The notes beneath the pieces were generated by a model. That model was not told the DNA's origin. It did no database searches and worked only from the letters and a program-made list of their open reading frames with translations. A stretch of 64,000 nucleotides of DNA, taken from positions 79,339-143,338 of the forward strand of contig LUGL01000037.1 in assembly GCA_002796835.1 (NCBI GenBank), in the 5' to 3' direction. This DNA comes from Elainella saxicola E1. Lineage in GTDB: Bacteria; Cyanobacteriota; Cyanobacteriia; Elainellales; Elainellaceae. Position 1 is the stretch's first letter. Each line of letters begins with the position of its first letter. Below, piece after piece: positions 50,099 through 61,816 of the stretch. The position numbers were made by a program, and so were the translations under genes.

Positions 50099-51715
50099 CT
50101 ATAGCAGCCGAGAGAGCAGGTTGTAAATCAAGCGAAATATGACCGTTGCAGCGATCGCAATCAGGCTCATGAACCCAGCAATCACCAGGATCATCACCAC
50201 TGGGCTTCCCAGTCCCAAGGCTTGAGCGATCGTACTCAGAGGTGGCATTAAGAGAATTTTATTGAACAAATTGAACGGGAATAGCCAGACGGCCAGCAAT
50301 GTAAGGCCAGCAATGATCAGGAAATCGACCTTCTCTACCCAGCGCTGCATTTGGGCAAAAATCAAGCCTGTCATCAGCCCTAGCAGAATCAGCCAGAAGA
50401 AAGGCGAAAGTCCGGCGGTGCCTAAAAGACTCGCTAGCGCGATCGCGAGCAGACCTCCCTCAAAGCCAGTAAACGCTGCGCTAGCAAGAATTTCTCCCAG
50501 CGAAAAGTTGGGTAAAGAAATCTGCGGCAAAGCTAGATTAGGGCGCGATCGCCTTGATACAACCGGGGGAGCTGGCTGAACCGGAGCCACAACCGGAGCC
50601 GGGACCGGAGAAACAAGCTGGGGTGAGGGTTGAGTGAGAGGCGGCTGAATTGGAGGGGGAGATGGGGCTGGCTGGCCTTGCGGTGCCTGGGATTGTAGAG
50701 CAGTCGCTGCCGCAGGAGGCATGAAGGTCGGAGATGGACTGGCAGACGCTGCGCTAATCGGACCTTGTAGTGCCACCAGCACCTCATCCGCTGATTGAAA
50801 GCGTTGATTGGGAATGGGCAACAGCAACCGGTTCAAAATGGCTTCCAGGCGATCGTTGACCTGAGTGTAAATTCGCCAATTCCAAGTGTCGCTATAGGTG
50901 TCATGCAGTTCGTTTGGCTGTTTGCCCGTCAGAAGGGTAATACAGGTAACTGCCAGCGCATAGAGATCTGTTGCTGGATACACTTTGTCGCCTCGCATTT
51001 GTTCCGGTGGCGCAAATCCCATGGAATAAATGCCGGTTGAAGCTTTACCGGGCTGATTACTGGCCGCCCCAGCCGTGACTTGTTTCACTGCTCCAAAATC
51101 TAGCAAAAATAGCTGGCCATCCCGTCGCCGCATGATATTCGAAGGTTTAATGTCGCGGTGAATCGAGCCACTATCATGCACAAATTTCAAGACTTTCAGC
51201 ATCTCAGTTAAAATTTCTAAGATTTCTGCCTCAGAAAATTTACCCCTTGCGGCCAGTTCCGCTTCCATATCTTGCCCATCCACAAACTCCTGGACAATAT
51301 AGAAGAGTTGTCCGGTTTGCCCCGTGATCTGTCCAGATACCTCGAGTGGGAAAAAAGCCAATAAATCAGGAATTTGAGGATGACGATTGCCGAGATCTTC
51401 CAGCACCTCCGCTTCCCGTTCAAATAGGCGCTGGGCAACGGCTAATTGATCAGGAGACAAATTACCCGTAGGCTGAAATTGTTTGACGACGCAGTAGCGC
51501 ATGTTGGGGGTGCGCCGATCGCGAGCCAGAAAAGCAGCTCCAAAACCACCTTGACCCAGCAATCTAGTTGTGAAATATCGATTGTCTAAAATTAACGGCA
51601 TCCCGCAAGCCGTACAAAATTTTTGCGACACCGTTTTAAGTTTGGTACTGTCATCCAGATCAGGAAAGAAGTTGCGCGGTCGAGAACAACCTGGACGAGT
51701 ACAGTAGATCTCCAT
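50099..51715 (-). CDS. Cyanobacterial 4-Cys serine/threonine kinase with C-terminal membrane region
   Basis: 538 aa. The N-terminus carries four cysteines ('YCTRPGC' and 'FCTACG'), the 4-Cys zinc-ribbon-like mark of a cyanobacterial kinase group. The kinase domain follows: 'LLGQGGFGAAFLARDR', 'CVVKQF', 'SIHRDIKPSNIMRR', 'FLLDFGAVKQV' and 'GFAPPEQMRG'. A Pro/Gln-rich linker (about 330-410) leads to four or five membrane helices. It is RD-type and looks active. The gene lies upstream of a periplasmic-binding-type protein in one transcription unit. Confidence 0.92.
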   Translation of the reverse strand: MEIYCTRPGCSRPRNFFPDLDDSTKLKTVSQKFCTACGMPLILDNRYFTTRLLGQGGFGAAFLARDRRTPNMRYCVVKQFQPTGNLSPDQLAVAQRLFEREAEVLEDLGNRHPQIPDLLAFFPLEVSGQITGQTGQLFYIVQEFVDGQDMEAELAARGKFSEAEILEILTEMLKVLKFVHDSGSIHRDIKPSNIMRRRDGQLFLLDFGAVKQVTAGAASNQPGKASTGIYSMGFAPPEQMRGDKVYPATDLYALAVTCITLLTGKQPNELHDTYSDTWNWRIYTQVNDRLEAILNRLLLPIPNQRFQSADEVLVALQGPISAASASPSPTFMPPAAATALQSQAPQGQPAPSPPPIQPPLTQPSPQLVSPVPAPVVAPVQPAPPVVSRRSRPNLALPQISLPNFSLGEILASAAFTGFEGGLLAIALASLLGTAGLSPFFWLILLGLMTGLIFAQMQRWVEKVDFLIIAGLTLLAVWLFPFNLFNKILLMPPLSTIAQALGLGSPVVMILVIAGFMSLIAIAATVIFRLIYNLLSRLL

Positions 51716-51748: not shown

Positions 51749-52759
51749 TTAACTACTGGGATGAAGCGGCGTGGCCTCAAGGGGTAAAGCATGCTCAGCG
51801 ATCGACTTATGTTCCAGCACTTCGTCAGTCGGCGGTTCATAAGTCGCAAATTGAGGCAGAATCTCCTGCGTAAAGGCTTCTGCCGCTTTAGAACGATAGC
51901 GATTTGGATTAAAAATCACGGATAAGGTGCGATTAACAACCACCCCTTCGATCCGAGAACGGTGCAGGACCCCCATTTGCAGCTCTTTCTCAATCGCGGA
52001 GATGGATACAAACGCTGCTCCCAGTCCGGCTTGCACCGCATTTTTGATCGCCTCGATCGTATTCAGCTCCATTTCAATTTTGAGACGCCGCGTTTCAATG
52101 CCGCATCGGGTTAGCACTTGATCGATCACTTTACGAATCGTAGATTGGGAATCCAGCGCGATGAATTGCAGCTTATAGAGGTCATCTTTCTCAATCTGTG
52201 GCAGGCGAGCAAAAGGATGAAACATCGGCAAAATTAACGCCATTTCATCCTCGGCATAGGGAATGACTTCGAGGGAATCCTGCAGCTCAGGCGGAATTTC
52301 ACCGCCAATAATAGCCAGATCGATCTGCCCATTGGCCACACTCCAAGCCGTGCGTCGTGTTGAGTGGACATGGAGCTGCACAGCCACATCTGGATATTTT
52401 TGCCGAAACAAGCCCAGCATACGTGGCAATAAGTAGGTGCCCGTGGTTTGGCTTGCCCCTACAATCAGCGTGCCGCCTTGCAAGTTTTGCAGGTCTTCGA
52501 TCGCTCGACAGGTTTCTTCACAAAGGCTCAAAATTCGATCGCCATAATTAAGCAGGAGATGACCCGCTTCGGTCAGCTGGGCTCGACGGCCACCGCGATC
52601 AAACAAAGGGACATCAAGCTGACGCTCCAGGTTCTGTACTTGAAGGCTGACAGCAGGTTGTGAAACGTAAAGACTGTCAGCAGCACGCTTAAAGCTTCCT
52701 TCAGCAGCGATCGCTTTAAGGATGCGTAACTGATCCAAAGTAAACGGAAGATCAGACAT
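51749..52759 (-). CDS. rbcR: LysR-type regulator RbcR/Ycf30
   Basis: 336 aa from the ATG at 52759. '[20 protein letters not shown]' and '[20 protein letters not shown]' form the winged helix, followed by the effector domain ('[20 protein letters not shown]', '[20 protein letters not shown]', '[10 protein letters not shown]'). This is near-identical in pattern to RbcR/Ycf30, which controls rubisco and carbon-concentration genes; metabolites of the photorespiratory or Calvin cycle act as co-effectors. NdhR/CcmR is the main alternative, but the N-terminus favours RbcR. It is divergent from the photosystem-assembly cluster. Confidence 0.9.
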
Positions 52760-53020
52760 GGCTATTAAATCCAGTAAGGAGGAGAAGCCGTCACACTTGG
52801 TCAACAGTACTACCTGAAACGGTCATCATACAAGCAAGTGGGGTTTGGGGTAGACTGCTCAACATCGATCGGGCACCAGAGAGCAAAGCAAACCTGCGGT
52901 GAGAGCAACAGGGTGCCTCCATACAGGTAGTCTAGAATCAGTCTAAAAGCAACAAAAGATCTAGCTATAAAGAATCATAATGAATAGGGGATCTTAGGTC
53001 GATGGGGAAGTAACGATAAC

Positions 53021-54007
53021 ATGCCAATGAGACAGGAGGTTATCCAAAATTTCTTGGATGTCCCAGGAATCGCAGGCGTGGCGCTAATCGATGGCATTTC
53101 TCGCCCCTTCTTTCATGGGTTTGCGACTGGGTTTGACTTCTCGCAGCAGGAAGGAGTGGCTCAGAGTATTCAGCAAGTTCTGGAAACGGCCCCAGAAGGC
53201 TTCAACTCTTTTGAATTTCAATTTGGCCGCTACCGAGTTTACCTGCATAAGCTTAATCAAGGCACAACGCTTCTTGTGCTGACGGGCAACTATTTACCTC
53301 GGTTCGTCTACATGCAGGAGATCCGACGCCTGCTATTAGAGTTGCAAATTGGTCAAGAAAATCCGATCGCAGAATTTCGATCGTTGGCAGCCCACATCCC
53401 CATTTCATTCAAACCGCTTCCTCTGCCGTCCCAGCCCATTCCCGTCTTGTCAGAGGATTTACTGGCAGAACACCAGCCGAATCAAGCCGTTCAGATAAAT
53501 CCAGCTGTGACAGATCAGGCTGGGATAGAGGCTGCTGATTTAGCCCTAGCACCTGAGACTGCGACAGCACCATCTTTAGAGACTAAACCCTCAGAACCAA
53601 AATCTCTACTATCTCTCTCAACAGAAACAGCCCAAATTGCTTCCACAGAACCGATCGCCCCACAGCCCATTAGCGTGAAAGAAGTTTTGGCCGCCATCAA
53701 TACCCTGAGTCAAATTACAGCCCAATATTTGGGAACTATGGTAGTTGCAAACTATTGGAAGGTCACTTGTCCAGACGACGATTGGCTACATCACTTCCAA
53801 ATTGAACGTTCTGGCCAAATGACGTATGTTGTGCAGATTCCTTCAGAGCGCCTACCACTGCTGACGGTTGAACAGCATCAAACGATTCAAATCTGGGTTG
53901 CTGCCTTTCTGGAACGCTGTTCTAAAGTCATTCGGAACTTCGCCAAAATTGTGCAGCATTCTTTGGACGATCGGCAAAAGTCATTGCTGCTTCACCTTCC
54001 GCATTAA
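53021..54007 (+). CDS. Roadblock-like domain protein at the head of the PSII-assembly-like cluster
   Basis: 328 aa. The N-terminal 95 residues read as a roadblock/LC7-like fold ('NFLDVPGIAGVALIDGISRP' and 'RYRVYLHKLNQGTTLLVL'). A low-complexity Pro/Ala/Glu linker (about 120-215) follows. The C-terminal 100 residues form a separate domain ('LSQITAQYLGTMVVANYWKV', 'LPLLTVEQHQTIQIWVAAFL') that I do not recognise. It is soluble. It lies 36 bases before the ferredoxin gene and probably heads the same transcript. Roadblock proteins regulate small GTPases or act as scaffolds; none is near. Confidence 0.7.
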   Translation: MPMRQEVIQNFLDVPGIAGVALIDGISRPFFHGFATGFDFSQQEGVAQSIQQVLETAPEGFNSFEFQFGRYRVYLHKLNQGTTLLVLTGNYLPRFVYMQEIRRLLLELQIGQENPIAEFRSLAAHIPISFKPLPLPSQPIPVLSEDLLAEHQPNQAVQINPAVTDQAGIEAADLALAPETATAPSLETKPSEPKSLLSLSTETAQIASTEPIAPQPISVKEVLAAINTLSQITAQYLGTMVVANYWKVTCPDDDWLHHFQIERSGQMTYVVQIPSERLPLLTVEQHQTIQIWVAAFLERCSKVIRNFAKIVQHSLDDRQKSLLLHLPH

Positions 54008-54043
54008 TCTAACTCAGACCTGCTGTGCTTCGGAGTTCAATTC

Positions 54044-54529
54044 ATGGTGAAAACCGTCAGACTAGAACCGATCGCTCAAGAAACTTCGATCGAAACAAAC
54101 GGCAATTTACTTTCAGTCCTGATCGCCAAAGATCTGGATGTTTTACGGGAGTGCGGCGGCAGAGGCATGTGTGCCACTTGCCATGTTTTCGTCCAACAGG
54201 GCATGGAGGCCTTAACCCCCGTGAATCGGCGGGAGCAAAGAACGCTAGAAGTCATTACCTCTTGTCAGCTGAATTCACGTCTTGCCTGTCAAGCCAGAGT
54301 TTTAGCCAATGGGGTGGTTGTAGAACTGCCGCCCGGTATGTACATCAACTCTATTCAAGACATTGAAGCGCTGGTGGGTCGGCGAGCGGAACAAAATCTA
54401 CTTCACCCGGTAACGGGCCAAGTGTTGGTTGAAGAAGGGAAGCTGATCACGCGATCGATGCTGAAGCAGATTGAAAAAGCAACCAGCTTTAATTTCAACG
54501 ACTTTTTCTTAAATAGCAGCGATATTTAA
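54044..54529 (+). CDS. Adrenodoxin-type [2Fe-2S] ferredoxin (Slr0148-like)
   Basis: 161 aa. The cluster ligands are Cys37, Cys43, Cys46 and Cys82 (C-x5-C-x2-C-x35-C; 'LRECGGRGMCATCHVF'), the spacing of adrenodoxin or bacterial-type ferredoxins rather than plant PetF. An extra Cys74 is present. The C-terminal 60 residues extend beyond the ferredoxin fold and end in an acidic, aromatic tail ('FNFNDFFLNSSDI') that could dock a partner. From memory the slr0144-slr0152 cluster of Synechocystis contains such a ferredoxin. The electron partner is unknown. Confidence 0.85.
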   Translation: MVKTVRLEPIAQETSIETNGNLLSVLIAKDLDVLRECGGRGMCATCHVFVQQGMEALTPVNRREQRTLEVITSCQLNSRLACQARVLANGVVVELPPGMYINSIQDIEALVGRRAEQNLLHPVTGQVLVEEGKLITRSMLKQIEKATSFNFNDFFLNSSDI

Positions 54530-54855
54530 CAGAATTCAGCAATGGATGATTGAGAGCCAAGGGCTGCGCAGGTTCAACGTCCTGTCTCGCTTTGCATGCC
54601 GAGAATAATAAACCAGAGAATGCATTGAGAATAATAAACCAGGGAACACTGAAACCAGCGATTCCTCCTATGATCTGGAACTGAAGCCTAGTACTGAAAC
54701 CTAATTCAGTTTGCTGCACCAAAACTGCCGATTCAGATGTTGTCTCTGATGCAGGATTTTTGCTGAAAGCATCAGGGAGGATCACAATCCTGGGCGACTC
54801 GTAATCGCAAGACACCTTTGAACCTTAGCAACTCCTTCTGAAGGAAAATTCATCC
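54530..54855. other. Intergenic region inside the cluster
   Basis: 326 bases between the ferredoxin and the first phycobiliprotein-like gene. It contains a direct repeat (54601-54642). A 106-codon frame is open on the minus strand but overlaps the ferredoxin end and shows no family features. A promoter for the downstream genes may lie here; no convincing box pair is seen. Confidence 0.4.
54601..54642. repeat. 16-bp direct repeat, period 26
   Basis: GAGAATAATAAACCAG occurs at 54601-54616 and 54627-54642. Each copy is preceded by a GCAT. It lies in the ferredoxin downstream region. Confidence 0.8.
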
Positions 54856-55332
54856 ATGTTGAGTCAGCTTGAACGTCTCAGTCGTGAAGTCGATGGTCGC
54901 TATGCCAGTGATGCAGAGCTCACTTTTGCGATCGACTATGTACGCTCTTTCAACCTGCGTTTGCAAACCTATCAAAAACTGCAAGAGCTAGAAGCAACGC
55001 TTATTCAGCAAACCTACGCCAAAATGCGATCGATCGACCCAACCGTTTTCAACACAGGAGGCGTGGACCTGAGTGGTAAGTGGAAGCGCGATACGCTACG
55101 AACCATGCGCTATGTCGCCACTGCCGTTTTGATGGATGATGCTGACACATTCCGCGAACGGATGTTGCTCTGGTTTCAAACCCTGATGCGCGCTTTTGGA
55201 GCCCAACGCAGCTGTAATTTGACCTACCAGGTGATGCAAGATGTCGTGAAGCAATATCTAACAACCCCACAGGCCGATCTGGTCTGTCCTTTGCTGGAGC
55301 TGAGCCGCCGTGTGCTTGGCACGATCGCCTAG
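54856..55332 (+). CDS. Phycobiliprotein-fold protein lacking the bilin cysteine
   Basis: 158 aa, all-helical. The pattern matches allophycocyanin-family proteins: 'DGRYASDAELTFAIDYVRSF' aligns with the conserved RYLSPGEL helix, 'MRSIDPTVFNTGG' with the 'KRPDVVSPGGN' loop, and residues 76-95 ('WKRDTLRTMRYVATAVLMDD') with the chromophore helix of ApcA. At the bilin-Cys position stands Trp76; the Arg-Asp pair (78-79) and the Arg nine residues on (Arg85) are kept. It therefore cannot bind bilin covalently at the usual site. It may act as a partner or a structural mimic. It precedes the first V4R gene by 91 bases. Confidence 0.72.
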   Translation: MLSQLERLSREVDGRYASDAELTFAIDYVRSFNLRLQTYQKLQELEATLIQQTYAKMRSIDPTVFNTGGVDLSGKWKRDTLRTMRYVATAVLMDDADTFRERMLLWFQTLMRAFGAQRSCNLTYQVMQDVVKQYLTTPQADLVCPLLELSRRVLGTIA

Positions 55333-55423
55333 CCCGTCTGGACTGTTTTTCTGCTAGCGCTGACTTAACCAAGCTTCATCCAATTATTGTCTATCGGATT
55401 CATCAAAGGAATCAATCATAGTG

Positions 55424-56101
55424 ATGGCGACCGAAACCCAAAATCCGCTTAAGCGTAGATACCCGAAAAAACACAACCATTACGGTTTTCAGGACTTTTT
55501 CCAGTTTGATCCAGACAAAGGAACCATTGTTGACTGGAACAATAGTCAAAATATCCTCACAACCGAAGATTTCATTGTGGGTTTAGTTGAAGGCTTGCAA
55601 GAAGAAGTCGGCGACGCATCGGCTGCCACCATGTATACAATCGGCTGTGAATGGGGCCAGAAAGATGCCTTCTTCTTCGAGAAATGGTTTGAGCAAGAAT
55701 TCGATCGCAATATGCGCCAAACTAACCTGATGTTTTTGCTCGAAACCTGGTGGTGGCCGTTCACTTCTCAAGGCTGGGGTCGCTGGGAGGTGGACATGGG
55801 CGATCGTCGGCAAGGCTTCATGTTCATCAACATTTTTGACTCTGCGGTAGCCCGAACCTTGGGAGATGTCGGGAAACCCGTGTGCTATCTCTATGCAGGC
55901 TTGTTTGCCGGATTTTTTACAGAGCTGGTGAAAAAGCAATTGAGCTGTATTGAAATTCAGTGCTACTCCATGGGAGAAACCTATTGCAAGTTTCTGTTAG
56001 GGGGTCAAGATCGGATTGATGCTGCCGCATTTTGGCTGAATGAAGGCGCAACTGCACGAGATATTGAGAAGCGCTTACGGACTGGGGAGGTTTTAAGATG
56101 A
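55424..56101 (+). CDS. V4R-domain protein (Slr0144-like)
   Basis: 225 aa. V4R (4-vinyl-reductase) domain with the two conserved cysteines in 'LSCIEIQCYSMGETYCKFLL'. Upstream segments are 'YPKKHNHYGFQDFFQFDPDK', 'ASAATMYTIGCEWGQKDAFF' and 'LETWWWPFTSQGWGRWEVDM'. V4R domains bind small hydrophobic or tetrapyrrole-like ligands in BchJ. From memory Slr0144 of Synechocystis has this sequence type and is part of a cluster supporting PSII assembly. The ATG at 55424 follows a GTG at 55421; the ATG is preferred. The stop overlaps the next ATG (ATGA), so the two genes are coupled. Confidence 0.85.
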   Translation: MATETQNPLKRRYPKKHNHYGFQDFFQFDPDKGTIVDWNNSQNILTTEDFIVGLVEGLQEEVGDASAATMYTIGCEWGQKDAFFFEKWFEQEFDRNMRQTNLMFLLETWWWPFTSQGWGRWEVDMGDRRQGFMFINIFDSAVARTLGDVGKPVCYLYAGLFAGFFTELVKKQLSCIEIQCYSMGETYCKFLLGGQDRIDAAAFWLNEGATARDIEKRLRTGEVLR

Positions 56102-56427
56102 TCCAGGCTTCCCTGCCTCATTCCAACGGGGCGGCTGCTCATGCGAACCGAAGTTGGTTGCGACAGACAGTGCAGCAGTTTTTTCAGCAGATCAACTGGG
56201 AAGATCATCCCCCAGAAATTCATATCTTGCGGCAGCCAACCGCCGAAGGTCAGGATCCCTCACTCAGTCTGTTACTCACCGTCAACCAATTCTTTAGTGC
56301 AATTAACTGGGAAGGGCATTCCGTTGCCATGTCCCCTAATCCGATCGCCGAATCATTCCCCATCACCGATTCAACAACTGAAGAAACAGACCCCTTCACG
56401 CTGGAAGACTTTTCCGGTCTGTTCTAG
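56098..56427 (+). CDS. Small protein with two copies of a TVxQFFxxINWExH motif
   Basis: 109 aa, soluble, acidic. Residues 24-37 (TVQQFFQQINWEDH) and 61-74 (TVNQFFSAINWEGH) are two copies of one motif, separated by a Pro/Glu-rich linker. The C-terminus ends in 'DPFTLEDFSGLF', an acidic-aromatic tail reminiscent of docking peptides. There is no recognisable enzyme fold, so a bivalent adaptor is a reasonable inference. Its position suggests the Synechocystis slr0145 slot. It is coupled to the upstream V4R gene by ATGA. The stop codon lies in a 15-bp duplication. Confidence 0.75.
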   Translation: MIQASLPHSNGAAAHANRSWLRQTVQQFFQQINWEDHPPEIHILRQPTAEGQDPSLSLLLTVNQFFSAINWEGHSVAMSPNPIAESFPITDSTTEETDPFTLEDFSGLF

Positions 56428-56445
56428 TTAGGTCTGTTCTAGTTA
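56416..56445. repeat. 15-bp perfect tandem duplication over a stop codon
   Basis: GGTCTGTTCTAGTTA occurs at 56416-56430 and 56431-56445. The TAG of the first copy (56425-56427) ends the motif-duplication protein. Confidence 0.88.
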
Positions 56446-56595
56446 ATGGTCTAGCACCTGCTGGCGATCGTTGCCATTTAGGTTGATGTTAGAGATTGAC
56501 ATTACAGGTTGTTATTACAAGTTGCCATTTAGGCTGACACTTAGACCGCAACTCCCGCTGATTAATTTCTCGCTCATTATCTACTGTGAACCTCT

Positions 56596-57114
56596 ATGAA
56601 CCCTCACATTGCTGCGATTTTCGATGAAGCTGAAAATCGTTACTTAAAACCGGAAGAGCTGAAGTTAATTACCCAATATGTGGCATCTATGCCAGAGCGG
56701 CTCGATACTTATCGCAGTTTGCGCGATCGTGAGCTAGAAATCATGGAAACGGTTGCCGCTCAGCTACAGCAGGAAATGCCGCAAGCGCCGGAAGCCTTAA
56801 TCGAGCGCTGCCTCAAACATGCCTTACTGATGCTGCGTTACTGTGCCTTGAGCCTGCTCACCCATGACGAAACATTAGTACAGCGGCGCTTTGTCGATTG
56901 GGTGGGGCCTTTAACTCGAATCTATGATACGAAAGCGATCGATGCCAAGCTCTATCGGCTGCTGAACCAACAGTTATCGAAGGCATTGACACCAAAACAA
57001 CTGGGTTGTCTGAGCCCCAGTCTGGCTTTTGCCCAGGAGGCCATCCTCTCAACGGCCTCGATGAACAGTGCCTCAATGAACAGTACTTCGATGAATGCAA
57101 CTGTCGGCAACTAG
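56596..57114 (+). CDS. Phycobiliprotein-fold protein retaining the bilin-cysteine position
   Basis: 172 aa. 'ENRYLKPEELKLITQYVASM' aligns with the phycobiliprotein RYLSPGEL helix, and 'CLKHALLMLRYCALSLLTHD' (from Cys72) aligns with the ApcA chromophore helix, keeping Cys72 and Arg81 at the same spacing. The Asp that contacts the bilin nitrogens (CLRD) is His75. The fold is therefore close to allophycocyanin, but the site is altered, so bilin binding is possible and unproven. The C-terminal tail has a repeated MNSAS/MNSTS/MNATV unit from 15-bp tandem repeats. From memory it fits the slr0146 slot of the Synechocystis cluster. Confidence 0.75.
   Translation: MNPHIAAIFDEAENRYLKPEELKLITQYVASMPERLDTYRSLRDRELEIMETVAAQLQQEMPQAPEALIERCLKHALLMLRYCALSLLTHDETLVQRRFVDWVGPLTRIYDTKAIDAKLYRLLNQQLSKALTPKQLGCLSPSLAFAQEAILSTASMNSASMNSTSMNATVGN
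57055..57099. repeat. 15-bp tandem repeat, three copies, in coding sequence
   Basis: GCCTCGATGAACAGT (57055-57069), GCCTCAATGAACAGT (57070-57084) and ACTTCGATGAATGCA (57085-57099) encode a repeated five-residue unit at the C-terminus of the phycobiliprotein-like protein. Their ATGs also create spurious start codons for the next gene. Confidence 0.8.
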
Positions 57115-57157
57115 TTCACCCTCTGACCTTGGCATCCCTTATCTTTTGATACGCAAT

Positions 57158-57811
57158 ATGATTTCTGTTGCTGACCTTTTAATCAATAACAAAGTCCCCG
57201 GAAACTTTTTTACCCCTGAGGTTTACGTGCATGGAGACCTCGAAGTCGGCCTGTTGGAAAACCGTCAGGGCGATCGCCTTTTAGCCGTTCCAGAAACCTT
57301 GATTCAAGCCATCTATTCTGGATTGGATAAAGAAACCGGACAGGCTGCCCGCATGGTGTTGTTTAACTGTGGCAAGTGGTGGGGCAAAAGTTTTTACATC
57401 CGCTTCTCAGAACAAATGACCGGGTATTATGGCATACCGCTGGCTAACCTGCCGATGGCGGAGTTCCTCCAGGCTTTGCAGGAATGCTGGATCGCTCACG
57501 GCTGGGGCAAGATTGACCTCGATCAGACCTATCAGAACCGAGGTTTTTTGATTGCAAAGACCTGGAATTCTGCCTTTGCTCGACTTGCACCCTCGCAAGG
57601 TCAACCCGTTTGTCATCTGGAAGCGGGAGTTCTGGCTGCGTTCTTCAGTCAACTCACTGGGAAAGAATTACACTGTGTGCAAACCAGCTGCGAATCCATG
57701 GCGGCTGACTGCAATCGCTTTCTCCTGGGCTTGCCGCAGCGATTAGAGCCGATTGAGGCGATGGTACCTAATCTGGATCACGATGCAATCATGCAGGAGC
57801 TTTGTCCCTAA
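57158..57811 (+). CDS. V4R-domain protein (Slr0147-like)
   Basis: 217 aa from the ATG at 57158. The V4R signature is 'CVQTSCESMAADCNRFLLGL', with both key cysteines kept. 'GNFFTPEVYVHGDLEVGLLE', 'AARMVLFNCGKWWGKSFYIR' and 'PVCHLEAGVLAAFFSQLTGK' parallel the first V4R protein, so the two are paralogues. An ATG at 57095 would add 21 non-conserved residues and overlap the previous gene. A strong terminator follows 38 bases after the stop, ending this transcription unit before the kinase. Confidence 0.83.
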   Translation: MISVADLLINNKVPGNFFTPEVYVHGDLEVGLLENRQGDRLLAVPETLIQAIYSGLDKETGQAARMVLFNCGKWWGKSFYIRFSEQMTGYYGIPLANLPMAEFLQALQECWIAHGWGKIDLDQTYQNRGFLIAKTWNSAFARLAPSQGQPVCHLEAGVLAAFFSQLTGKELHCVQTSCESMAADCNRFLLGLPQRLEPIEAMVPNLDHDAIMQELCP

Positions 57812-57849
57812 CGTCCGCGTTCAACAACTTTAAATTCGGTTTGAATTGA

Positions 57850-57884
57850 GGAGAATCAAGTCATTTAACAGATTCTCCTTTTTT
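57850..57884 (+). terminator. Rho-independent terminator between V4R and kinase genes
   Basis: GGAGAATC (57850-57857) pairs perfectly with GATTCTCC (57871-57878) around a 13-base loop, followed by six T (57879-57884). An A-T pair extends the stem. It is the clearest terminator in the window and ends the phycobiliprotein-like/V4R unit. Confidence 0.85.
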
Positions 57885-57940
57885 CGATTCAGATCCGATA
57901 TCCTGGCAGTGCAATATTTGATTACGCTGCGCTTCTGCAT

Positions 57941-59854
57941 GTGTCTTTCTTACCCCATTCTGAGTTAAAACGCTCGAAGTACCGCCTCCTGGGACTGATC
58001 GGACAGGGACAGTTTGGACAAGTCTTTTGTGCTGTGCATCGGCCAACAGGGCGTTTAGTCGCCCTCAAAAACTTAGAACAAGAGCGGTTTCCCACCCATA
58101 AGTTTCTGCGGGAACTGCGGTTTTTGTTGAGTTTGCAACATCCGAATATCGTCACCTGTCAGGCGCTGGAACATACAAGCACCGGACGCTATTTGGTGAT
58201 GGACTATTGCGAAGGGGGAACCCTGCGATCGCTCATGGCCGAAGAGAGCTTTCTCAGCCTGCCCCAAAGCCTCAAGCTTGTGATGGATGTTTTAGCGGGG
58301 CTCGACCATGCTCACAGTCGTGGGATCGTCCATTGCGACATTAAGCCAGAAAACATTTTGCTGCATGTTCAGCCGGAAGGTTGGATCGCCCGGATCTCTG
58401 ACTTTGGTATTGCTCGCTTGCTGAAAGAAGTGATCCGCCAAGAAGGAGACACTGGCTCACCTGCCTATATGGCTCCTGAACGCTTTTATGGTCAATATTC
58501 TGCCGCATCGGATCTCTATTCAGTTGGGATTCTCCTGTTTGAACTGATCACTGGTTACCGCCCATTTTCAGGGACACCCGCAGAATTGATGTCTGCACAC
58601 CTCAATGCACCACTGAAGTTACCGGATACGATTCCTGCTGTCTGGCAGGCTGTAATTGCCCAGGCCTTGCAAAAACTTCCAGCCCGACGATTTCGATCGG
58701 CAGGAGGAATGCGGTCAGCAATTCAGGCGATCGTTGATAAACAGCTAGGAATGGGCGAGATCAGTGAATCTGTTCCCCTTTTTTTCACCGTGGTTGCCCC
58801 AACGCAATGTGCTTTTCAACCGGTTAGCCAGCTGCCAATCCAGCGACCCGTGCAGGCTGTTGCAGTGTGGCCCCAGGTCGATCACTCCGTCGTCAGTGCC
58901 TCTTCTCAGGCGAGTCCAATCAACGCCTGGTTATGCACCGCTACCGATCGCCAAGTATGCATGGAAATTTGGCCTGACGCCCCTTGTTGCCCAGCTTTCA
59001 ACGAGACTGATGAGACGATAACCCAGCCTGGATCAGACCCAGTCTTGGCTTCATTCGATCATTTGATCGATCAGCTCTTGGTGCGGCCATGCGGCTGCTT
59101 TGTTGTAACACCACAGTCGATCGGGTTGCTTGCCACTGCCGTAGAGACACCAGGCAAAGAAACACGAGATACAAAAACACCAGGACTTCAACGCATCCAT
59201 GCCTGGACAGAGTCCGCTGCCGTAACCATTGATCCGCAAGGCAAATGGTTTGCGACAATTGCCCCTTGCGCCCCTGAATCGACTTGCCAATTGACGATCG
59301 GCTTAATCACTAAACCACAGTCCCCTTTACGGCGATACCTGCCGATCAAGGCTCATCCCCACATGCAACTGCTGGCCCTAGATTCGAGGCACCTAGCCCT
59401 GATTCTGCCCCCTTCTCCTGAGGAACCAGCACATGGCACAACGCTCCACTTACTTAGTCGGCGGGGTCACGTGATGGGATCGTTTCATCTGGCATTGTCG
59501 CTCCAGCAGGTGGTACTCACCCGCAACCCTTATCAACTGCTGGCAGTAGACCCTCAACCTGGAAATCTGCTGCTGATTGATTTGAAACCCTATCGAGTAA
59601 AACGACTTTGGGTGGAGATTCCTCTGCAGTTTTTGGCAACCGTCCCCTGGGGATATGTGTTGGGCGCAACGAATGGACAGGTGGTGTTTTTGGATCAGGA
59701 GGGTCGATCGATCGGAACGTTACAATGTCCAGAGCCCCTAACCGCCATGACTGTCGTTCAACCCCAAGGCTTAATTCTGGCTACCTGGAATGGACAGGCA
59801 GGGAATTTGTATCGGTTTGATTTACGGACGATCGGGTTGGATCTCGTGTTTTGA
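57941..59854 (+). CDS. spkG: Serine/threonine protein kinase (SpkG-like) with C-terminal beta-rich region
   Basis: 637 aa. N-terminal Hanks kinase (about 15-275): G-loop 'GLIGQGQFGQVFCAVHR', Lys in 'VALKNLEQE', catalytic loop 'GIVHCDIKPENILL', 'ISDFGIARL', 'GSPAYMAPERFYGQY'. The HRD Arg is Cys132 (H131-C-D133), so this is a non-RD kinase. The C-terminal 340 residues are beta-rich with no clear repeat ('AVTIDPQGKWFATIAPC', 'GQVVFLDQEGRSIGTLQ'), resembling a degenerate propeller sensor. SpkG (Slr0152) ends the comparable Synechocystis cluster. The start is GTG at 57941. No membrane helix. Confidence 0.85.
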   Translation: MSFLPHSELKRSKYRLLGLIGQGQFGQVFCAVHRPTGRLVALKNLEQERFPTHKFLRELRFLLSLQHPNIVTCQALEHTSTGRYLVMDYCEGGTLRSLMAEESFLSLPQSLKLVMDVLAGLDHAHSRGIVHCDIKPENILLHVQPEGWIARISDFGIARLLKEVIRQEGDTGSPAYMAPERFYGQYSAASDLYSVGILLFELITGYRPFSGTPAELMSAHLNAPLKLPDTIPAVWQAVIAQALQKLPARRFRSAGGMRSAIQAIVDKQLGMGEISESVPLFFTVVAPTQCAFQPVSQLPIQRPVQAVAVWPQVDHSVVSASSQASPINAWLCTATDRQVCMEIWPDAPCCPAFNETDETITQPGSDPVLASFDHLIDQLLVRPCGCFVVTPQSIGLLATAVETPGKETRDTKTPGLQRIHAWTESAAVTIDPQGKWFATIAPCAPESTCQLTIGLITKPQSPLRRYLPIKAHPHMQLLALDSRHLALILPPSPEEPAHGTTLHLLSRRGHVMGSFHLALSLQQVVLTRNPYQLLAVDPQPGNLLLIDLKPYRVKRLWVEIPLQFLATVPWGYVLGATNGQVVFLDQEGRSIGTLQCPEPLTAMTVVQPQGLILATWNGQAGNLYRFDLRTIGLDLVF

Positions 59855-59873: not shown

Positions 59874-61631
59874 TCAAGGTTTAATTAAATATTGCTCAGC
59901 CTGACGATAGCTAGCGATTTGCTTTTGGCGTTGCAAGGGGAAATAGGCCGCAAGCACGACCCAGAGTATTCCTAAACAAGCCGTGATCGTGGTTAACAGG
60001 GGCGTCAGCAAACCGGGTGCTAAGCAAAGCCCCAGCGAAAAGCTGGTTGCAGCAGTGACAAGGGTAATGGTTGCAGAAAACCGTTTACTCAAGCCAAATT
60101 CTATTAAGCGTTCCACCGCTCTGCCGATTCCAATTCCAGCAAACACGCCCGCTACAATGCCTATTGCTACCCCAATCGGCAATACAGAAGCAACCATCGG
60201 CGTTTGAATTTCAAACACGCGCAGTAGAGTCATGCCGCCCAGAAACACGCCAGCCAGTACAGATGTGGTTGACCCGATCGCCAACGAAGCATTAGACAAC
60301 ATCCAGGCCGCAATTTGACAGCCGATCGCTGCACCAATCAGAGCACCAAATCCCAGGCTTGCAGGCGCATTCATGACCATGCCCAACATCACCAGGATCA
60401 GGGCAACAATCCAGCCTGCTACACCAAAACCGAGGAAAATCAGACCAACTAGCGGATAGGGCAAATGACGCAATTGAATCGGGATGGGAGCTGTTTGAAC
60501 CTGGATCGGAATTGAATAGACCTTGGGAAAAGAATTCGTATGTAGCAAAAGCGTGCGCTGATAGGTTTTGTTCGCCATCAGTCGCTGAGTATGAATCAAG
60601 ATTTGGCAGTCTATCTCATTCGCACTGAAGCGAGCAGGCTGAATCTGAATCCAGGTATGGGCATCTGGGGTATGAGGCGGATCGCTGACATGCGTTGCCA
60701 CTTCCAAATGTCCTTCTAGCAAGGTATCTGGAACTAAATTCGTAATGCGAATGGTTTGAGTTAAAGGCTCTCGCAATCGAGTTGCCGTGAACTGGAGCTG
60801 GGAAGCACTCAATTGCACCTCTGGTAGCCGAAGCGGCGTTTTAGGCATCGCATTCAGGGCCGCCGCTGCGTTAGCAAACCGATCTTTCACCTTCGGCTCC
60901 ACCATTTTCTCCAGCCAGTTAATCCAGTGCGGGCTAAGCTTAGACACCAAATGTTTAAAACTCACCCGGTAGCTGATATCAACCAGATTGCCAATCTCAT
61001 CTGTTTTGGTTTTGGTCAGCAAACAGATCAGCGTTAAACCCAAGCCATAGAGATCAGAAGCTTCCGTCAATTGGCGGTTAAACAGTTGTTCGGGAGGCAT
61101 GAACCCCAGCGTCCCCTTCACAACGCTACTGACCCCAACTTCGCCATCCCCCACCCTGGCAAAACCAAAATCCACCAGGTAGACATTTATCTGCTCATCG
61201 ACCAGGATATTTTCGGGTTTGACATCTCGGTGAATGACGGGAGGCAGACGGTTCTGGAGATAGATCAGAATTTCTAGTGCAGACACTGCAATTTGGCGTA
61301 CCTCTTCAGCACTAAAGCTACGCGTCACGCTCAGCGGCAGCGCAGGTTTATATTCCTGCACCATGCAAAAGCCCGCTTCCGTTTGAAAGGAATCTAAATA
61401 GCGTGGAATCCCTCGATGTTCGAGGCCCCGAAGCACATCTATTTCACGATGATAGGCATCATAGCCAGACCAACCGACACTCGATCGAGCAAACTGAAAT
61501 TGCTTAATCACCACCGTTGCTTCAGTCGCGATCGCAGTTGCTAGATAAGTGACTCGCCCACCTGCACGATTCGAACCTAATTCTCGCTCGACGCGATAGC
61601 CGTAATCCAAAAAATCTGAAAAATCGTTCAT
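59874..61631 (-). CDS. Serine/threonine protein kinase with Ig-like region and C-terminal membrane helices
   Basis: 585 aa from the ATG at 61631. Kinase domain: 'ELGSNRAGGRVTYLATA', Lys in 'TVVIKQFQ', 'PPVIHRDVKPENILV', 'VYLVDFGFARVG', 'GTLGFMPPEQLF'. It is RD-type. A beta-sandwich segment (about 275-395: 'LQFTATRLREPLTQTIRITN') follows. Five or more membrane helices close the chain ('GLIFLGFGVAGWIVALILVM' and later), several Gly/Ala-rich. It ends tail to tail with the SpkG-like gene, 19 bases away. The signal sensed is unknown. Confidence 0.88.
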   Translation of the reverse strand: MNDFSDFLDYGYRVERELGSNRAGGRVTYLATAIATEATVVIKQFQFARSSVGWSGYDAYHREIDVLRGLEHRGIPRYLDSFQTEAGFCMVQEYKPALPLSVTRSFSAEEVRQIAVSALEILIYLQNRLPPVIHRDVKPENILVDEQINVYLVDFGFARVGDGEVGVSSVVKGTLGFMPPEQLFNRQLTEASDLYGLGLTLICLLTKTKTDEIGNLVDISYRVSFKHLVSKLSPHWINWLEKMVEPKVKDRFANAAAALNAMPKTPLRLPEVQLSASQLQFTATRLREPLTQTIRITNLVPDTLLEGHLEVATHVSDPPHTPDAHTWIQIQPARFSANEIDCQILIHTQRLMANKTYQRTLLLHTNSFPKVYSIPIQVQTAPIPIQLRHLPYPLVGLIFLGFGVAGWIVALILVMLGMVMNAPASLGFGALIGAAIGCQIAAWMLSNASLAIGSTTSVLAGVFLGGMTLLRVFEIQTPMVASVLPIGVAIGIVAGVFAGIGIGRAVERLIEFGLSKRFSATITLVTAATSFSLGLCLAPGLLTPLLTTITACLGILWVVLAAYFPLQRQKQIASYRQAEQYLIKP

Positions 61632-61816
61632 AACTGCTCGCAAGAGAGGAGGTGAACAAATACAGCAGATTGCTGCAAGGCAGATTGCAAACCCAGTTCA
61701 CATCAATAACTCAACTCGAGCAATGGATTTCTGTCTGCCAACACAGGGATCAAAGCAAATTGTACAAGCGGACCTTTCAAGTCGTTTTCATTATGACGTG
61801 ACAATGTGGCAGAAGC

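Follow-up and report, generated by a model that had tools for sequence, protein, structure and literature searches.

Positions 53021–59854 of the window (the whole 64,000-nucleotide stretch of DNA that was analyzed) contain eight plus-strand genes that form a cyanobacterial V4R/BBAG cluster, with the core slr0144–slr0149 of the slr0144–slr0152 (pap) operon of Synechocystis PCC 6803. Relative to the published outline of this cluster, the new element is RBC, an undescribed C-terminal domain encoded by the first gene, and its confinement to V4R-positive genomes. The possibility raised in a preliminary description of this DNA, that homologs might never co-occur in other genomes, was contradicted by a synteny survey of 140 cluster loci, in which the genes were found together across many genera.

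Gene Content of the Locus

The eight proteins named in the preliminary description were all confirmed in place on the plus strand. Genes were taken from the list of open reading frames, and Pfam supplied domain matches for six of the eight, roadblock and adaptor excepted. The first gene (53021–54007, 328 aa), recognized from its open reading frame, homologs at other loci, and a structure model, encodes the roadblock-RBC protein. It is followed by a 2Fe-2S protein of the ISC/adrenodoxin type (slr0148/Fd5 kind; 54044–54529; Fer2, 5e-8; fdx_isc, 4.6e-13) and by globin 1, a cyanobacterial BBAG of the slr0149 kind identified by Pfam and a motif survey (54856–55332; Phycobilisome, 3e-18). V4R protein 1, of the slr0144 kind (55421–56101; V4R, 2e-22), overlaps by 4 bases an adaptor with two FFxxxNW motifs in the slr0145 position (56098–56427), and globin 2, a phycobiliprotein-like protein in the slr0146 position (56596–57114; Phycobilisome, 3.7e-9), overlaps by 20 bases V4R protein 2, of the slr0147 kind (57095–57811; V4R, 7e-16). 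The last gene encodes an SpkG-type Hanks kinase (57941–59854), assigned by Pfam (Pkinase, 2.5e-52) and synteny.

Genes for a PetF-type ferredoxin and a TPR protein were absent from the open reading frames at the locus, as previously noted, and a genome-wide search with the N-terminal half of the TPR protein found no match. Neither a bilin reductase nor a heme oxygenase was present among the eight genes, all of which were assigned to other families. An Rfam scan of 50–62.5 kb found no RNA family, and promoter and terminator scans at the locus gave counts equal or close to the shuffled level.

Gene Order and Relation to Known Clusters

The link to the slr0144–slr0152 photosystem II (PSII) assembly cluster drawn in the preliminary description was correct, and had already been published in outline. 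Both loci have V4R, adaptor, globin, V4R, Fe-S, globin, and SpkG-type kinase genes, and the kinase of the full operon, like the one here, carries the SpkG-type C-terminal domain. The arrangement differs from Synechocystis in that the FeS-globin pair lies upstream of V4R 1 rather than downstream of V4R 2, the PetF and TPR genes are absent, and a roadblock-RBC gene is linked at the front. To that extent the order is distinct, as had been claimed; however, it is the ordinary arrangement of its branch and not peculiar to this genome. The exact order recurs in 23 of the 140 loci and is thus not due to chance. Across loci, V4R-adaptor-globin-V4R constituted a fixed core, and the FeS-globin pair moved between positions as one block.

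A second phycobiliprotein-like gene had also been counted as a difference, mistakenly, because Synechocystis-type operons have two globin genes as well; for example, the nine genes of locus L086, which match slr0144–slr0152 in kind and order, include two globin genes and the adaptor. The roadblock gene, by contrast, proved a better extra than first noted, because its RBC domain is restricted to cluster-bearing genomes.

In the available portion of Rockwell (2023; PMC10151467), the cyanobacterial BBAG cluster is described alongside pre-PcyA clusters and as descending from bilin clusters; the Fe-S protein, two V4R proteins, and phycobiliprotein-like globin are common to it and to the present locus, and the cyanobacterial form lacks bilin reductase and heme oxygenase. 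In the published cluster, the two V4R proteins fall one each into clades A and B. The conserved parts listed in that portion do not include the adaptor, the RBC protein, or the kinase domain, each of which was confined to V4R genomes here. Locus L135, from another class of the same phylum, has the order FeS-V4R-adaptor-globin-V4R together with heme oxygenase and bilin reductase. Most surveyed cyanobacteria lacked V4R genes, so PSII assembly as such does not require the cluster.

The Roadblock-RBC Protein

Homologs of the roadblock-RBC protein were present at 50 of the ∼140 cluster loci; Met3 is invariant, so the conserved start is probably at 53027. Although the gene had no Pfam match, the predicted structure of residues 1–114 (53021–53362) matched Roadblock/MglB/LC7 chains. 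The best Foldseek match of the model was a Thorarchaeal Roadblock protein (E 3.3e-4); VIA gave a Z score of 10.3 over 107 residues at 2.9 Å, and MglB was also matched. In the predicted model, the N-terminal domain thus has the Roadblock/LC7 fold, which it has in common with MglB and other Roadblock/LC7 proteins; here it is fused to RBC by a disordered linker.

RBC itself (53681–53989; ∼100 aa, here ∼102) was modeled with a pLDDT of 94.8 and is encoded once in the genome. Of the 386 genomes surveyed in the phylum, 41 encode it, and all 41 are V4R-positive (raw counts that ignore kinship); RBC often lies apart from the cluster. The N-terminal partner can be exchanged: roadblock, pentapeptide, and receiver-like domains occur there, and in the surveyed relatives of Synechocystis PCC 6803 the RBC protein is one with pentapeptide repeats. 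A Pfam scan of 31 RBC members gave nothing above chance, and a fold search gave no significant match (best Foldseek E 1.4); the best VIA match, to an H-NOX chain of the H-NOX/V4R superfamily (Z 5.2 over 65 residues), was not taken as evidence of kinship, and the best match in a PDB sequence search (E 0.06) was dismissed. A parallel with TRAPP, in which longin and Bet3 folds combine (PMC10933270), was considered for the roadblock and V4R folds but set aside because other genomes swap the roadblock part for unrelated domains.

The Adaptor and the Kinase C-Terminal Domain

Two further families showed a similar distribution in the genome survey. The adaptor, a single-copy gene, contains FFxxxNW twice, as its homologs usually do, and a C-terminal TLxDFSxLF motif. 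It was found in 54 genomes, of which 53 were V4R-positive, and the kinase C-terminal domain (58808–59848), an SpkG-type region with no Pfam family beyond scattered weak matches, was found in 48, of which 47 were V4R-positive (both raw counts that ignore kinship). The L135 cluster encodes an adaptor homolog (E 7.6e-9) beside its bilin enzymes. The kinase domain was restricted to V4R genomes even where it was unlinked. The matches outside V4R genomes, one for the adaptor in a 451-aa frame of genome G299 (E 1.2e-5) and one for the kinase domain in G071 (E 6e-4), were weak and are probably due to chance.

Candidate Ligand and Redox Sites

The two V4R proteins are distinct in position and in conservation of the zinc site. 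In V4R 1, the three Cys and one Glu of this site were invariant in 126 of 126 sequences, and C155, E178, C181, and C189 aligned with the zinc residues of PoxR and MopR, whose zinc and ligand pocket have been described (PMC10715001, PMC7264223); in V4R 2, by contrast, the Cys site was variable. V4R 1 thus keeps a predicted zinc site of the PoxR/MopR type. It shares the V4R profile and the Cys/Glu/Cys/Cys residues with the phenol sensors PoxR, MopR, and DmpR, but at 226 aa it stands alone, with no AAA+ or DNA-binding parts, and its alignment with PoxR (E 0.0095) was weak beyond the zinc region.

The four Cys ligands of the Fe-S protein were kept in at least 77 of 78 aligned rows. The globins had been described as tetrapyrrole-pocket proteins, which holds only in part. 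The bilin site of globin 1 reads KWKRD, so that the Arg and Asp of CxRD are kept but Trp replaces the bilin-attaching Cys found in Synechocystis; this residue is Trp in most of the branch and toggles repeatedly. The corresponding site of globin 2 reads ERCLKH instead of xCxRD, with the Cys in place and Arg-Asp missing. The complete CxRD attachment motif was found in neither globin, which makes it uncertain that they bind bilin in this genome.

Proposed Function and Alternative Explanations

The preliminary description proposed a regulated cofactor-handling module, and we likewise infer that ligand handling for PSII assembly may be the mechanism. The locus is a member of the V4R/BBAG cluster, in lineage-typical order and with an added roadblock-RBC protein; in the reading that we favor, to which we give an even chance, its products would cooperate to deliver a cofactor or report its supply. 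The two V4R proteins, two globins, and Fe-S protein would form one complex, held together by the adaptor through its FFxxxNW motifs. The ligand of the V4R proteins would be hydrophobic, probably of the tetrapyrrole type, and bound in a zinc-stabilized pocket; globin 1 might hold, noncovalently in this genome, a bilin or a tetrapyrrole related to it. The Fe-S protein would pass or sense electrons and be phosphorylated by the SpkG-type kinase, the RBC protein would attach an interchangeable domain, a scaffold or a sensor and in this genome a roadblock dimer, to the complex, which would then deliver cofactor, or report its supply, in PSII assembly and repair. In Synechocystis, affinity purification-mass spectrometry with Slr0149-GFP supports interactions among Slr0144–Slr0149 on the thylakoid (PMC9880817), Fd5 is no longer phosphorylated when SpkG is missing (PMC11863333), and published operon mutants are affected in PSII level. 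The PSII effects may belong to slr0150–slr0152, as PMC10151467 notes, and two of these three genes are missing at the present locus.

An alternative, which we regard as possible but rather unlikely, is that the cluster is a signaling module and not an assembly factor, with the V4R and Fe-S proteins sensing a small molecule or redox state and reporting via the kinase and the RBC/roadblock protein to partners elsewhere. In PoxR, MopR, and DmpR, V4R domains with the same zinc site act in ligand sensing, and MsvR has V4R cysteines that are redox-responsive; the fusion of RBC to roadblock, pentapeptide, or receiver-like domains and the confinement of the kinase C-terminus to V4R genomes, linked or not, also fit signaling. 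However, the V4R proteins here carry no fused output domain such as DNA binding, and the PSII phenotype of the operon mutants and the thylakoid complex also tell against it. It is less probable again that the cluster is a relic of bilin metabolism, still acting on bilins that PcyA and heme oxygenase produce elsewhere, with only an indirect effect on PSII. In L135 the same gene set comes with a heme oxygenase and a bilin reductase, bilin binding is known for BBAGs from other bacteria, and the present genome carries four bilin reductases; all four, however, are on contigs other than that of the cluster, and the replacement of the globin 1 attachment Cys by Trp in most of the branch, with repeated toggling, speaks against such a role.

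The roadblock gene might also be a mere passenger beside a conserved LysR gene, unrelated to the cluster, since in the branch of the window it always has the LysR gene on one side and the Fe-S gene on the other; this is highly improbable, because there are at least three other positions, none with LysR, in which RBC adjoins the cluster, and because RBC is found in V4R genomes only, even when unlinked. We instead propose, tentatively and at somewhat short of an even chance, that RBC is a new family serving the V4R/BBAG complex as a dedicated socket. The complex would be bound by one face of the domain, and different scaffolds or inputs would be plugged in through the exchangeable N-terminal partner, so that the same photosystem-assembly machine would be wired to cues that differ between lineages.

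Although slr0144–slr0152 has for years been linked with PSII assembly, no biochemical role has been assigned to it. The three cluster-confined families, RBC, the adaptor, and the kinase C-terminus, provide a defined parts list, and the invariant zinc site of V4R 1 provides a concrete handle on the V4R ligand. In several Synechocystis-type genomes RBC lies outside the cluster, and experiments that delete the operon could therefore overlook it.

Gene Content and Order of the Cluster

All eight genes of the preliminary description were found on a single strand (+) at 53021-59854, encoding a roadblock protein, an Fe-S protein, globin 1, V4R 1, a short adaptor with two FFxxxNW motifs, globin 2, V4R 2, and a SpkG-type kinase. 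Pfam and NCBIfam confirmed the families of the Fe-S protein, the two phycobilisome-family globins, the two V4R proteins, and the Hanks kinase. The roadblock gene lacked sequence-family support; its proposed roadblock-like identity was supported by structure, as residues 1-114 of an AlphaFold model built from 17 aligned sequences matched Roadblock, MglB, and LC7 structures. The V4R 1 and adaptor genes overlap by 4 bases and the globin 2 and V4R 2 genes by 20 bases. Scans for promoters and terminators were uninformative; gene spacing suggests that the cluster genes likely form one transcript. A divergent LysR regulator gene (51749-52804, − strand), which begins 216 bases away from the roadblock gene and shows 80-94% identity among loci of the same gene order, is a possible regulator of the cluster genes. 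Three Hanks-kinase-like genes lie inside 12 kb (50099-51715, −; 57941-59854, +; 59874-61643, −), the last tail to tail with the cluster kinase.

The published counterpart, the slr0144-slr0152 operon, is tied to PSII assembly and repair. Rockwell and co-workers (PMC10151467) traced its core, slr0144-slr0149, to pre-PcyA clusters of other bacteria; they described it as combining genes for Fe-S proteins, V4R proteins, and bilin-biosynthesis-associated globins (BBAGs), and they noted that it varies, is frequently lost, and is occasionally duplicated. The window’s cluster almost certainly belongs to this type and is a lineage-typical variant of it. At one surveyed locus (L086), nine genes run V4R, adaptor, globin, V4R, Fe-S, globin, PetF-like, TPR, and kinase, the same kinds in the same order as slr0144-slr0152; thus, the adaptor and the second phycobiliprotein-like gene, the latter previously taken as peculiar to the window, are normal parts. 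The PetF and TPR genes are indeed missing from the window’s locus, and the N-terminal half of the TPR protein had no match in the whole genome, all matches being to its TPR repeats.

Among 140 loci (80 drawn from named genome contigs and 60 from a phylum sample, including some near-duplicates), the V4R-adaptor-globin-V4R string was almost constant, and the Fe-S and globin 1 pair occurred upstream, downstream (Synechocystis type), or, in inverted orientation, after V4R 2. The exact window order, with divergent LysR, roadblock, Fe-S, globin, V4R, adaptor, globin, V4R, and kinase genes and hence the pair upstream, was carried by 23 of the 140, in Leptolyngbyaceae- and Oculatellaceae-type genomes and Roseofilum, so the order first described as distinct is the usual one of this branch. 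Five loci (L090, L114, L115, L116, and L133) had a second cluster type without the adaptor (Fe-S, RBC, Fe-S, V4R, globin, V4R), in which RBC, the C-terminal domain of the roadblock protein, follows a receiver-like N-terminus; some genomes (G187 and G340) carry this type plus an ordinary cluster, with a separate RBC gene for each copy.

Confinement of Cluster Parts to V4R Genomes

RBC (∼102 residues, one copy in this genome) is a separate domain, predicted confidently (pLDDT 94.8). Pfam and PDB-sequence searches found no match for it, and fold searches none of significance. Of 386 sampled genomes of the phylum, 60 had V4R domains and 41 had RBC, all of the latter V4R-positive (0 of 326 V4R-negative genomes), spanning 16 of the 20 V4R-positive cyanobacterial families; the hypergeometric value for this co-occurrence (6e-41) ignores ancestry and hence is no true probability. 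V4R and RBC are both present in G052 and both absent from G077, a genome of the same genus. RBC is frequently distant from the cluster (∼0.7 Mb in G014) and, where linked, lies before Fe-S, before V4R 1, or after the kinase. Its N-terminal partner is roadblock-like in the window, pentapeptide repeats in other genomes (L146, Pfam 3.8e-37), in a third group a receiver-like domain (E 0.005, below Pfam’s cut-off), and elsewhere other sequence. A mere passenger role is unlikely, because RBC takes several positions beside the cluster and stays confined to V4R genomes even when unlinked. At L103:5355-9500, a SpkG-type kinase gene sits between two RBC genes, all in front of the cluster.

RBC is the one genuinely new lead of this analysis, and the confinements of the adaptor and the kinase are two supporting ones. 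Of the 54 genomes matched by the adaptor profile, 53 carry V4R; the matches that were inspected sat inside the cluster, flanked by V4R 1 and globin 2. A model built without the L135 sequence detected a homolog at the equivalent place in that locus, from another class of the phylum (E 7.6e-9). Because L135 also encodes proteins matching PF05996 (bilin reductase, 1.6e-17) and PF01126 (heme oxygenase, 2.4e-13), the adaptor seems to have long belonged to the bilin-associated cluster. There (L135:2823-12284), Fe-S, V4R, adaptor, globin, V4R, and heme oxygenase genes stand in a row, the bilin reductase gene and another globin gene lie close by, and the adaptor has at least three motif copies. The window’s own genome has four ferredoxin-dependent bilin reductase genes (G000:C17:55118-60790 and G000:C60:708-1367), three close together and none near the cluster. 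Of the 48 genomes matched by the kinase C-terminal domain, 47 carry V4R (the match in one of these is weak), and the domain was frequently unlinked. The Fe-S protein of the slr0144-slr0152 cluster, Slr0148, is presumably ferredoxin 5. In Synechocystis, a SpkG mutant loses ferredoxin 5 phosphorylation (PMC11863333).

Predicted Binding Sites and Proposed Mechanism

V4R 1 residues C155, E178, C181, and C189 showed no variation across 126 of 126 sequences and match the corresponding positions of PoxR and MopR in alignment; in the V4R domains of these two proteins, three Cys and one Glu hold zinc alongside a hydrophobic ligand pocket (PMC10715001, PMC7264223). Glu is the least certain ligand of this predicted site, as DmpR’s printed Glu numbering fits the alignment inexactly; in V4R 2 the zinc-type site is partial, variable, and without Glu. 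At the bilin-attaching Cys position of globin 1, 48 of 78 tree rows had Trp and 30 had Cys, and well-supported branches force at least four switches. The window’s globin 1 (KWKRD) has Trp there, with Arg and Asp retained, so covalent bilin attachment is not expected from its sequence; globin 2 (ERCLKH) lacks both Arg and Asp. Bilin binding of any kind by these globins is therefore uncertain.

Interactions among the cluster proteins were demonstrated in Synechocystis by AP-MS with Slr0149-GFP (PMC9880817). The main rival account is that the cluster senses a ligand rather than delivering it. In the best-supported picture, whose chances are put somewhat below even, the cluster proteins would form one complex that serves PSII assembly in this organism by handling a ligand that is hydrophobic and probably a tetrapyrrole; the adaptor may act as a tether and RBC may provide docking, and the kinase and a replaceable module attached via RBC would exert control. 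The analysis itself shows the parts of the cluster, their confinement, and, by sequence, the zinc site. Cluster membership and this mechanism, blended as one best explanation, stand at about an even chance.
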